From positions 1 to 58,015 of the forward strand of contig JADGRE010000006.1 of NCBI GenBank assembly GCA_017881185.1: a DNA stretch of 58,015 bases, written 5' to 3'. The DNA comes from Pseudomonadota bacterium (lineage in GTDB: Bacteria; Myxococcota_A; Polyangia; Polyangiales; JAFGIB01). The position numbers and the translations under genes are program-made. The notes beneath the pieces were generated by a model that saw only the letters and a program-made list of their open reading frames with translations, made no database searches and had not been told where the DNA came from. Positions 1-52,123 of the stretch are shown piece by piece. Within the stretch, counting starts at the first letter, position 1. Every line of letters starts with the position of its first letter.

Positions 1-150
1 CTGACCGGGAGGATTTGACCCATTCTCGCTTGTCCCGAGCGCGCATGGCTGCGTTGCTCCTCGTCACAATAGCGCCGGCTATTGCTCCTCGTCGCGCCTG
101 GCCCTGCACGTTCGGTGCTGCGCGATAACGGGTCAAATCCTCCCGGTCAG
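1..150. repeat. Long imperfect palindrome with perfect 21-bp ends
   Basis: CTGACCGGGAGGATTTGACCC (1-21) is the exact reverse complement of GGGTCAAATCCTCCCGGTCAG (130-150). The interior is also largely self-complementary, with central CAATAGC-GCCG-GCTATTG. The element begins at the window edge. Confidence 0.85.
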
Positions 151-23855: not shown

Positions 23856-23929
23856 GCCGATGTAGCTCAGCCGGTTAGAGCGGGCGTTTCATACGCGCTA
23901 GGTCGGAGGTTCGAGTCCTCCCATCGGCA
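23856..23929 (+). tRNA. tRNA with CAT anticodon (tRNA-Met elongator, or tRNA-Ile2 if the C is lysidine-modified)
   Basis: GCCGATG/CATCGGC acceptor, GCTC/GAGC D stem, GGCGT-TTCATAC-GCGCT anticodon arm, GGAGG-TTCGAGT-CCTCC T arm; CCA not encoded. Confidence 0.93.
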
Positions 23930-48398: not shown

Positions 48399-48515
48399 AA
48401 GGTTCGCTCCTCGGTCACGCAGTATCGAAAACTTGATGCGTCGCTGTCAAACCGGGGGCATGCGGGCCGGGCTCAGCGCTTGCGAGGCGCCAGAGAGACG
48501 AGATTCTTGGCGACC

Positions 48516-48706
48516 GGGGAGCTGGGGGACGGTGGGTCGTGCGGGGGACGATCCGCTTGCAAAGAGTGGCGGCCTCGGTAGCGAGCAAACGTATCCGTAC
48601 GCCACGCAAGCGGATCTCGTCTCGTCGCGCCAAGTGCGCGCCGCGCTTCAATGCGCACTTGGCACGCCGAGACGCCCCCGCCCGCCCCACCGTCCCCCAG
48701 CTCCCC
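48516..48706 (+). ncRNA. Candidate structured element E1 (191-nt three-way junction); RNA or DNA form unknown
   Basis: P1 48516-48547/48675-48706 (30 of 32 positions match); P2 GATCCGCTTGC/GCAAGCGGATC (48550-48560/48606-48616) plus GTGGCG/CGCCAC; P3 48618-48639/48653-48674 (20/22). Confidence 0.6.
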
Positions 48707-48874
48707 TTGCGTCGGAGTCGCTCTCCCGGGCTCGAGAGCGAGACTCCATCATGCAACCTCGTGTTGCGGTGACGTGTCCACTACACTTAACAGCGAGGCC
48801 GTTCGCTGGAGTGTTGGTGTCAGCTGACACGTGTTCGTCTGGCTGAGGGGCTTGCACGGGTGGCGCTGACATGA

Positions 48875-49065
48875 GGTGCTTCGGGGGCGGTTACGTGGGT
48901 GCGCGGGGCGTCCGAGCGTGACAAACGCCAAGTGGCGCGGCCGCGTTTGGCACGCTCGTACGAGGTCGACTTGCGTGGCGTACGGAAACGTCTTCTTGCT
49001 ACCGAGGCCGCCACTCTTGCAAGTCGACCGTCCCCGCGCACCCACGTAACCGCCCCCGAAGCACC
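48875..49065 (-). ncRNA. Candidate structured element E2 (191-nt), inverted homologue of E1
   Basis: P1 48875-48908/49032-49065 (34 bp perfect); P2 48964-48974/49019-49029 plus 48975-48980/49009-49014; P3 48909-48928/48943-48962 (18/20). Confidence 0.6.
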
Positions 49066-49096
49066 GTTCGCCAAGAACTCTCGTTCTCGCTCTCCC

Positions 49097-52000
49097 TCAG
49101 AACAAGCCAATCGAGAACTGCAAGGTTCCAAAGGGTTCCCCCAGCGCGCGGCGGCGCGTCAACACGATGCCGTAGTCCACCGCGATGGGGCCGACCGGTG
49201 TAGCCAAGCGCAAGCCCGCACCCGCGATCGGCCGCAGCTGGAACGGGTTCATCATGGCCGGGTCGGCCCACAGGTTGCCGATGTCCGTGAACAGCCCCGC
49301 GCCCAGTTGGCCGTAGACGGGGAAGCGCAGCTCGCCCTTGAGCAGGATGAACGCATCGCCGCTGCGCACGATGCTGTTGGGGGTAAGCTTGGGGTCGGTG
49401 ATGATCTTGTTTGCGATGTCTTGCGGCACCATTTCGTCGAGGTAGTAGCCGCGCATCGTGTCGACGCCGCCCAGGAAGAACGCGCGGTCGGGATAGGTTT
49501 TCGAGTCGTGCTGCAAGTGCACGATGCGCCCGACGCGCGCCTGGCCTGCGAGCACCACCGAGCGGCCGAGCGGCACGTAGCCGCTGCCGGTGATCTGCAG
49601 CTTGAGAAAACGGCTGAGGAACTGCGCCTTGTCGGCGCTCACCGTCTCGGTCGCCAGCGTGGTGGCGAGCTCGGAGGACGCGGACACGAAGTAACCCTTG
49701 GTCGGAGTGAACGGACTATCGCGCTGATCGTAGCTGATGCCCAGGCGTGCGGCGGCCAGCGTGGTATTGCCTTCGGGTACGCGCAGCAAGCGCTTGAGCC
49801 GCGGATCGCTGGTCATCGCCAGGTAGTCGTTGAGCGCTTCACTCACGAAGAGATCGACGTTGTTGTTCTCGAGGTCGGCCGCTTCCGTGAGCGTGATGCG
49901 GTGCCACGGCGTCTCGGTGAAGGTAAGCGTGCCGCCGTTCTTGTCGAGACCGAAGTCGCGCTCGTTGTGACGCACGTGCACCAGATCGATGGCGGTGCGG
50001 GTGGAGCCAAGGCCAGGCACGCGCGGGATTACGGTGCCGAGCGAGATGTTGCGTTCGAGGCGGTCTTGAAGCGCGAGCGCTTCGAAGCGTCGCCGCAGCT
50101 CCGGGCTCACGAAGAAGAGCTGGTGCGCGAACTGCACGCGCAGGGTCATGCTCACGGCGCGGTCGAACAAGTTGCGGTAACCGTACTCGAAGCCGCCGCG
50201 CACGCCTTGTCCCGTGCTCACGCCCGCGCTGAAGTCGAGGAACTGGTTGCGGCGCTCGCTCACCGTCACCAAGAGCGGCTTCACGCGCGCGGGTAGATCG
50301 GGGTCTTGCATGCCGATCGACACGCCGGTGAATACACCCAGCGCCTGCAAGGTTTCTTCGCTCTTGCGCGCCTTGGAGGGTTGGTAGAGATCGCCGGGCT
50401 GCAACGCCAGCAAGTTGCGGATGAACGCCACGCTGGTGCGCTCGGTGCCGCGCACCACGATCTCGCCCACGTGCACCGGGAACCGCTCGCTGATCTGGAA
50501 GGTGACCTCGGCGCGTGTGCGGTCGCGCGAGAAGCGCACGCTTGGTTCGATCTTCACGAACATGTGGCCGCGCTCGTTGTAGAGGTTCTGCATGCGCAGC
50601 CGGGCCTCTTCCAGGCGCAGGTACGAGAACGGTTGGTTGCGGGTGAGGCCCGACGCCACCAGCAACTCACGCTCGCTCACCAGGCGTTGACCCTGCAGCA
50701 CCACGTCGTGCAGCAGGGTCTGCGGGCCTTCGACCACCGGGATGTTCACGGTCGCGCGGCTCTCGCCCACGCGTTCGAGCACGGCCGGGCCGACCTTCAC
50801 CGACAAGAAACCATCCGCTTGATAGAGCTCGGTGATGTGCTTGATGGCTTCGGTGTAGGTGGGCTCGTAGTAGGTGCCGGCCGGATTCTCGGCCATCGGC
50901 TTGGGCACCTGGCGCTCGGGCGTGGTCTTGCCCGTGGTGAGATCGTCAGCGACGTCGGAGTCGACGATCTGGATTAAGTCGGAGTTCGGCAGATCGTCTT
51001 CGAGGTAACTGACGATCTGATCTTGCAGCTGCTCGCGCGGGAAGTGTTGCGCGCCGGTGAAGCCGATATCCACGACCTCGAGCTGGCGGCCCGGCACGAC
51101 GCGGATGCGCAACACGGCGCGGTCCGCTGAGCGCGCGCCCAAGCGCGACTGCAAGCGCGCGATGGACACGCGAGCCTCGATGAAGCCATGCCGCGCGTAC
51201 GCGTTCTTCACGCGCGCGGGCATGAGATCGAGGGTTTGATCGGTCAGGCGTTCGCGATCGAGCTGCAGCGCTTCGATGACTTCCTCGACCGGCAAGGGCG
51301 AGGTGCCCAGCACGTCGTAGGAGTAGCGCGGGCCGACGTGCGCGGGGAAGGTCACCTTGGCCTGCTCGCCCTCGATGGTGAGGATCGGCGCATCGAGGCT
51401 CGCCTCGAAGTAACGCTGCGCACGCAGGTACAGCTCACCCTTCTTGGCACTCTCGGCGAGCACACGCCGATCGAGCACGTCATCGAGCGCTACGCCCATG
51501 GCCTCGCGCACGCCGAGTGGGTCGGTCGGCTGCTGCCCCGCGAACACGATCTCGGTGATGCGCGTGGGCGCACCTTCCTCGATGTTCACCATCAGCACTT
51601 TGGATGACGGGTCGTCGGTGTCGCGGAAGCTGACATCGACGCGCGCACCGAGGTAGCCGCGCTCCGCGTAGGCCTTGCGTGTGGCCGCAGACAGCGCTTC
51701 GAGGCCCTCGCTGCTCAGCTCGGAGCCGCGACTGACACCCAGCGCATCGGTGATGACTTCTTCGTCCACGTGATGGGTGCCCTGGATGTCGATGCGCCGC
51801 AGTGTGATGCGCGGCTCCAGATGCAAGGTGAGCAGCACTCCGTCGTCTTGCGGCTCGGCGTCGACCTGCACGTCGATCCAGCGGCCGCTCGCGAGCAGCC
51901 GTTCAATCGCGGTGCGCACGAGCTTGCGGGTGAGCGGTGCGCCCAGCGGGATGCCAGCCTCGCGCGCGGCCGCGATCTCCGCGACCTCGCCGGCCACGCG

Positions 52001-52123
52001 CACCTCGTTCACCGGCTTGTTCTGCAGCGCTTCCGGGATCTCGGCGCGCGCCACCCACGCTGCCGCGCTGATGCAGGCGGCAAGCACGATGGCGGTCCAG
52101 CGCGCGAGCAGAGAGGAGTGCAT
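49097..52123 (-). CDS. BamA/TamA (Omp85) family outer-membrane assembly protein
   Basis: Several POTRA-like repeats, C-terminal barrel with FFLGGVDTMRGYYLDEMVPQD and final GLF. Confidence 0.88.
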   Translation of the reverse strand: MHSSLLARWTAIVLAACISAAAWVARAEIPEALQNKPVNEVRVAGEVAEIAAAREAGIPLGAPLTRKLVRTAIERLLASGRWIDVQVDAEPQDDGVLLTLHLEPRITLRRIDIQGTHHVDEEVITDALGVSRGSELSSEGLEALSAATRKAYAERGYLGARVDVSFRDTDDPSSKVLMVNIEEGAPTRITEIVFAGQQPTDPLGVREAMGVALDDVLDRRVLAESAKKGELYLRAQRYFEASLDAPILTIEGEQAKVTFPAHVGPRYSYDVLGTSPLPVEEVIEALQLDRERLTDQTLDLMPARVKNAYARHGFIEARVSIARLQSRLGARSADRAVLRIRVVPGRQLEVVDIGFTGAQHFPREQLQDQIVSYLEDDLPNSDLIQIVDSDVADDLTTGKTTPERQVPKPMAENPAGTYYEPTYTEAIKHITELYQADGFLSVKVGPAVLERVGESRATVNIPVVEGPQTLLHDVVLQGQRLVSERELLVASGLTRNQPFSYLRLEEARLRMQNLYNERGHMFVKIEPSVRFSRDRTRAEVTFQISERFPVHVGEIVVRGTERTSVAFIRNLLALQPGDLYQPSKARKSEETLQALGVFTGVSIGMQDPDLPARVKPLLVTVSERRNQFLDFSAGVSTGQGVRGGFEYGYRNLFDRAVSMTLRVQFAHQLFFVSPELRRRFEALALQDRLERNISLGTVIPRVPGLGSTRTAIDLVHVRHNERDFGLDKNGGTLTFTETPWHRITLTEAADLENNNVDLFVSEALNDYLAMTSDPRLKRLLRVPEGNTTLAAARLGISYDQRDSPFTPTKGYFVSASSELATTLATETVSADKAQFLSRFLKLQITGSGYVPLGRSVVLAGQARVGRIVHLQHDSKTYPDRAFFLGGVDTMRGYYLDEMVPQDIANKIITDPKLTPNSIVRSGDAFILLKGELRFPVYGQLGAGLFTDIGNLWADPAMMNPFQLRPIAGAGLRLATPVGPIAVDYGIVLTRRRALGEPFGTLQFSIGLF

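Follow-up and report, generated by a model that had tools for sequence, protein, structure and literature searches.

When the two arms of a stem covary, this is usually taken as proof that an RNA is conserved. The question raised at positions 48491–49096 of the window (the whole 58,015 nt stretch of DNA analyzed) is whether covariation carries that meaning here, where two copies of a three-way junction lie in opposite orientation, differ in sequence and keep their pairing. An earlier note on this DNA offered two readings, a structured non-coding RNA or a hairpin-dependent mobile DNA element, and took the pattern as a sign of selection on structure.

Architecture of the 600 bp unit

Both junctions, E1 (48516–48706, plus strand) and E2 (48875–49065, minus strand), are exactly 191 nt, as had been noted, and folding of each confirms a closing stem, P1, that encloses two adjacent hairpins, P2 and P3. 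The G-rich 5' arm of P1 in E1 is at positions 48516–48547 and the C-rich 3' arm at 48675–48706. Between them are P2 (48550–48616), which has an AAAGA bulge and a variable apical loop, and P3 (48618–48674), which has the motif CGCGCCAA...TTGGCACG; all four segments are on the plus strand. The P1 arms and P3 were placed by folding and self-match and P2 by folding and covariance model R1. In E2, on the minus strand, the fold places the G-rich 5' arm at 49032–49065 and the C-rich 3' arm at 48875–48908, and the fold together with the R1 alignment places P2 at 48964–49029 and P3 at 48909–48962. The E1 region is highly stable thermodynamically (-164.4 kcal/mol, z -12.1), as is that of E2 (-162.0 kcal/mol, z -11.1), with no shuffle as stable in either case. 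The three compensated changes described between the P2 stems of E1 and E2 are real. The P2 apical loop had also been called conserved; E1 and E2 agree in it, but other copies are variable.

The segment between the junctions (48707–48874, no strand assigned) was delimited by comparison of copies. It contains two palindromes, likewise without strand: GCAAC-5nt-GTTGC (48753–48767), which recurs in type-1 copies, and TGTCAGCTGACA (48818–48829), which recurs with variants in type-2 copies. The left outer end (48491–48515, plus strand) is purine-rich and continues into TTCTTGGCGA. It is the inverted counterpart of the right outer end (49066–49096, minus strand), which reads TTCTTGGCGAAC on the minus strand and is directly 3' of the neighboring gene's stop codon. 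The left end pairs with the right end in the fold of the whole unit and recurs at the ends of other copies; when the 600 nt are folded as a single DNA strand with the outer ends paired, z is -20.8. E1, E2, the inverted outer ends and the middle part thus form one unit of about 600 nt (48491–49096, no strand assigned, outer limits approximate), and E1 and E2 are two ends of this unit, not two separate genes. The unit is an inverted pair that separates a stop codon from the promoter region of the next gene on the minus strand. The stop codon, which abuts the unit, is that of a TamA-like Omp85/POTRA protein gene (49097–52123, minus strand; Pfam POTRA and Omp85) outside the element. At the start of the contig, window positions 1–150 form a near-perfect inverted repeat, CTGACCGGGAGGATTTGACCC ... 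GGGTCAAATCCTCCCGGTCAG, that resembles the end of another repeat element.

A dispersed family with empty sites

A BLAST search with E1 finds about twenty places in the assembly that holds the window (G000; 6.0 Mb, 410 contigs). Twelve full copies were aligned, an RNAalifold consensus was made, and covariance model R1 was built from the core, i.e., inner P1, P2 and P3. The covariance-model search that the earlier note had proposed yields many dispersed copies: 19 junctions in this genome, to which are added about ten end fragments that keep one end, usually the 5' arm. Compensated changes are found at 17 of 41 pairs in the 12 own-genome copies and at 32 of 41 in an alignment of 45 copies. The covariation holds on these 45, with a score of 0.449 compared with 0.118 in shuffles (0/500 as high). 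The P2 and P3 stems are conserved among members of a subfamily; GGACG, TTGC(A)/GCAA, CTCG and CGCGCCAA...TTGKCACG are the conserved motifs.

No named family had been recognized in the element, and for Rfam this holds. At the gathering threshold the only match in the window is a tRNA at 23856–23929, and eight related loci have no match; a permissive search of the region returns only eukaryotic and viral miRNA precursors, far below threshold and chance-like. The core model matches in 21 genomes among 145 relatives. With the broader 45-copy model the counts are 38 (G038), 34 (G106), 33 (G103), 30 (G075) and 16 (G006), and several genomes of genus g8 carry 12 to 38 copies. Eight genomes are positive in an even sample of 284 from the phylum, all of them from the window's own order. 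Phages and plasmids searched with the 600 bp unit and viral contigs searched with a gapped P2 pattern have no match. A 16-base pattern gives only chance matches in genome contigs, and of two Myxococcales matches that were checked neither is a member. All genomes are drafts or MAGs, and some inversions or chimeric copies, e.g., the one on contig C152, might be assembly errors.

Inverted pairs with the 5' arms outward are present in the window (contig C266), on C140, C152 and C277 of the same genome and on C338 of G002. A pair usually joins one subfamily 1 and one subfamily 2 junction, that of C277 being two of subfamily 2, and small palindromes (CAAC-5-GTTG and TGTCAGCTGACA) recur in the middle part. 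Units of genus g8 have a full junction at one end only; at the other the 5' arm alone recurs, inverted and truncated, and one or two modules in which GCGAAGC mini-hairpins abound lie between the two ends. The junction units are mosaic repeats.

Several other repeats were seen beside them. In g8 a mini-hairpin module of the GCGAAGC type that ends in AGGGAGGATTACGGG follows the junction at a distance of about 100 nt and is in some cases present twice (L246 3875–4100, L208 3035–3100), and another hairpin module, GGAGAACGGCTCGGGATGGGCAGCACAGCGATTGGG ... CGAGCACGCCCGTCGCGAGCCGTTCTCC, is mixed with junction units (L168, L169, L170, L174, L176, L354); at L174 the flanking sequence is itself repeated inverted around the unit. 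A second dispersed family of long hairpins, CGCTTGGGGTYGGCAGGTCGCTC...GAGCGACCTGCCRACCCCAAGCG, is within or adjoining junction units on G000 contigs C254, C236, C306, C248 and C244 (L230, L368, L366, L363, L359) and shows compensation in its stem at least once, where T-A has become C-G. The chimeric copy on C152 (L233 3624–3765) has mismatched P1 arms, and its 3' arm is that of the copy on C140; it is the product of recombination between copies or an assembly chimera.

The copies are not placed at random with respect to genes. Among 89 copies with both neighbors predicted, 55 are in convergent, 25 in co-directional and 9 in divergent gaps. The element-free gaps of the same stretches are 22 convergent, 81 co-directional and 38 divergent (22/141 convergent), an excess of convergent gaps for the element (P = 1e-12) and a deficit of divergent ones (P = 0.002); genes were called from simple ORFs and a codon-position score, and single cases may be wrong. 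The co-directional copies comprise 14 sense and 11 antisense (P = 0.69). A gene end is on the 5' side in 69 of the 89 copies, often a few nt from P1, and the 5' arm commonly begins a few nt after the stop codon. This bias toward gene ends follows from the residence of the elements between convergent genes. REPs likewise adjoin convergent genes at their 3' ends (PMC3733652), and the mobile unit of REPs is believed to be the inverted doublet (PMC3116915). One junction copy (L211 3203–3473) is directly behind a tRNA-Leu gene.

Comparison with relatives shows sites with and without the unit. The order of a DUF1844 gene and the TamA-like gene is kept in G001 and G002, of the same genus, and in G006, of the same family. 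The distance from the TamA-like stop codon to a TGTCAA motif upstream of the next gene is about 25 nt in G001 and G002, about 45 nt in G006 and roughly 650 nt in the window, and the corresponding stretches of the three relatives have no junction. These comparisons favor a lineage-specific insertion in the window over a loss, because three relatives are without the unit and one has it. In g8, G075 and G038 have copies in different intergenic gaps of one gene cluster, G103 and G075, with 93% identity at the locus compared, have several filled sites in common, and G085 has a plain spacer at one locus that is filled in both of these. At two orthologous loci with both flanks aligned (L303/L208 and L309/L204) the unit is in opposite orientation. 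This may represent an inversion, a replacement by an independent copy at the same site, or an assembly error; inversion and replacement would look alike in these data because orthologous copies are only 70–92% identical.

Base pairing in the stems

RNA stems tolerate G-U pairs as intermediates. The control was RNase P RNA from nine related genomes, which was aligned and folded in the same way as the junction copies; tRNAs were considered for this purpose and set aside as too few and too conserved. In RNase P RNA 10.1% of pairs are G-U (99 G-U and 7 A-C cells), compared with 0.5% in 18 copies from the window's family and G033 (3 G-U and 6 A-C cells). Stems from g8 have more G-U than the window's clade, i.e., 2.2% in G075/G085 and 5.1% in G038, the latter figure being weaker because near-identical copies count a few columns many times. 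Against the window's clade the excess of G-U in RNase P RNA is clear; against G038 it is weaker. Over all copies the P1 stem has 1313 Watson-Crick, 6 G-U and 26 A-C pairs, and the alignment as a whole has 1694, 15 and 33, respectively; the outer parts align too loosely for reliable G-U counts and were left out.

The outer P1 arms are 62% identical between copies of subfamily 1 and 96% complementary within a copy; in subfamily 2 these values are 53% and 95%. P2 stems are 94% (subfamily 1) and 83% (subfamily 2) identical between copies. Orthologous g8 copies differ by 59 compensated and 9 uncompensated double changes and by 99 single changes; 15 of the single changes create G-U and 28 A-C. Many of the double changes are C-G to G-C, states that no single G-U step connects.

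Template switching between the arms of an inverted repeat homogenizes the arms and inverts the spacer (PMC8604942). Both features are seen here, and template switching would explain them without RNA selection. This quasipalindrome correction has been described for short arms and spacers, whereas the arms here are 30 bp and the units 400 bp, and its action in these bacteria is a proposal. With this qualification, we infer that template switching is the source of the arm co-change and of unit flipping. Gene conversion from one subfamily to another may be a further contributor. The covariation on which the idea of selection on structure was based is real, but selection is not its sole possible source, in that DNA template switching also yields arms that change together.

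Nature and spread of the element

Of the two readings first offered, the mobile DNA element gains from the dispersed copies, the inverted-pair unit and the empty sites, and the structured RNA loses by the near absence of G-U and the lack of an orientation preference. E1 and E2 are probably the inverted ends of one non-coding, non-autonomous, dispersed DNA repeat of about 600 bp, with palindromic three-way-junction ends able to form Y-shaped hairpins. A junction end would form such a hairpin in single-stranded or extruded DNA, and the hairpin may be the form recognized by a trans-acting recombinase or transposase, with P2 and P3 carrying the conserved signals. Replication template switching between the arms would keep the stems paired while their sequence drifts fast; it would create RNA-like covariation and also flip units in place. 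Several points count against this explanation. The search for a transposase or recombinase linked to the family found none, and a target-site duplication could not be delimited. The P2 bulge region and the P3 motif are strictly conserved across two families, which calls for a binder or a function, and G-U is higher in g8 (see above).

A structured RNA would be a small RNA or the 3' untranslated end of an mRNA that terminates transcription or protects the mRNA end, with compensation resulting from selection on the fold. The element shares with Rfam-type candidates a conserved multistem fold of very high stability, strong covariation and conserved loop motifs, and the gene ends 5' of 69/89 copies and the tRNA-Leu gene before one copy would suit such a role. 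Unlike these RNAs, however, the junctions have no Rfam match, their G-U is near absent in the window's clade compared with 10% in RNase P RNA, A-C mismatches are as common as G-U, and there is no sense or antisense preference beside co-directional genes. Promoter-like or terminator-like signals at E1 and E2 are not above chance, and the copies are lineage-specific and often truncated. A structured RNA is accordingly quite unlikely. A classical MITE, i.e., an internally deleted insertion sequence whose ends are served by the DDE-type transposase of an autonomous relative, with the fold incidental, is unlikely as well. It would account for short non-coding dispersed units (~430–720 bp) with terminal inverted ends and insertion polymorphism, including the empty sites. 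The fixed fold, with ends that are Y structures and inner stems that covary across families, is not expected of a MITE, and neither a parent element nor a target-site duplication was found. No duplication is visible at the target site, the spacers of relatives being too diverged to place exact ends, and no autonomous relative is present among the own-genome copies examined, which are a part of the copies in an incomplete assembly. Clustering of predicted neighbor genes reveals no shared coding or transposase gene, only ordinary host genes. Two candidates for an element gene were rejected: an ORF between two inverted copies at L211, which lacks a Pfam match and whose flanking copies are two separate elements, one of them the copy behind the tRNA-Leu gene, and a wide pair of ends 3.2 kb apart at L359, which encloses host-like genes and no transposase recognizable by eye. 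A bridge-RNA or omega-RNA was also discarded, as inspection by eye found no IS110 or IS605 gene beside the copies inspected.

The closest known repeats are REP/BIME and REPIN elements, which are also extragenic palindromic repeats, have an inverted-pair unit, form mosaics with other hairpin modules (PMC3733652, PMC3116915) and occupy sites next to the 3' ends of genes and in convergent gaps. REPs differ in being hairpins of 20–60 nt, whereas each end here is a 191 nt three-way junction and the unit is several times larger. The short stem with its GTAG or CGTC tag is absent, the outer stem is hypervariable, and the window's genome has no RAYT gene. A REP/REPIN system driven by an IS200-like tyrosine (Y1, RAYT) transposase is very unlikely, even with inverted doublets that are extragenic and beside gene ends. 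RAYT-like Y1 (PF01797) genes are present in many g8 genomes, including most of those with high copy number, and G010 and G018, with one copy each, have none. No Y1 match, however, is found in G000 or G002, both of which bear the element. The g8 RAYT genes (L266, L267, L268, L270, L271, L273) have a conserved chromosomal place and are flanked by an unrelated inverted repeat of their own of about 65 nt, and no junction element is within several kb of them. A retron-like msr-msd remnant or other reverse-transcribed element is extremely improbable. P1 around two hairpins does resemble the a1/a2-enclosed retron RNA, and msDNA-like repeats have reportedly been found in a myxobacterium. There is no Rfam retron match, and the reverse transcriptase domain RVT_1 has no match in G038, G075, G103 or G106 (38, 30, 33 and 34 copies); its absence from four high-copy genomes argues against a retron-like spread.

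The non-autonomous DNA repeat is best classed as a new mobile element of REP/BIME-like type, unusually large and enriched between convergent genes. It is not assigned to the REP family itself, of which it has neither the size nor the transposase. An undescribed enzyme might, although this is rather doubtful, process the ends in the form of Y-shaped single-stranded hairpins, the outer stem being rewritten each round as one arm is copied from the other. If this is true, covariation in such families would arise incidentally from DNA replication and would be a general cause of false structured-RNA candidates.

Described here is a family of large, structured repeats from a single bacterial order, in which the covariation is of textbook quality and the pairing rules and placement point to DNA. 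It provides a natural data set for testing to what extent selection on RNA can be imitated by template switching between inverted repeats, and it calls for caution when non-coding RNAs are sought in GC-rich genomes.
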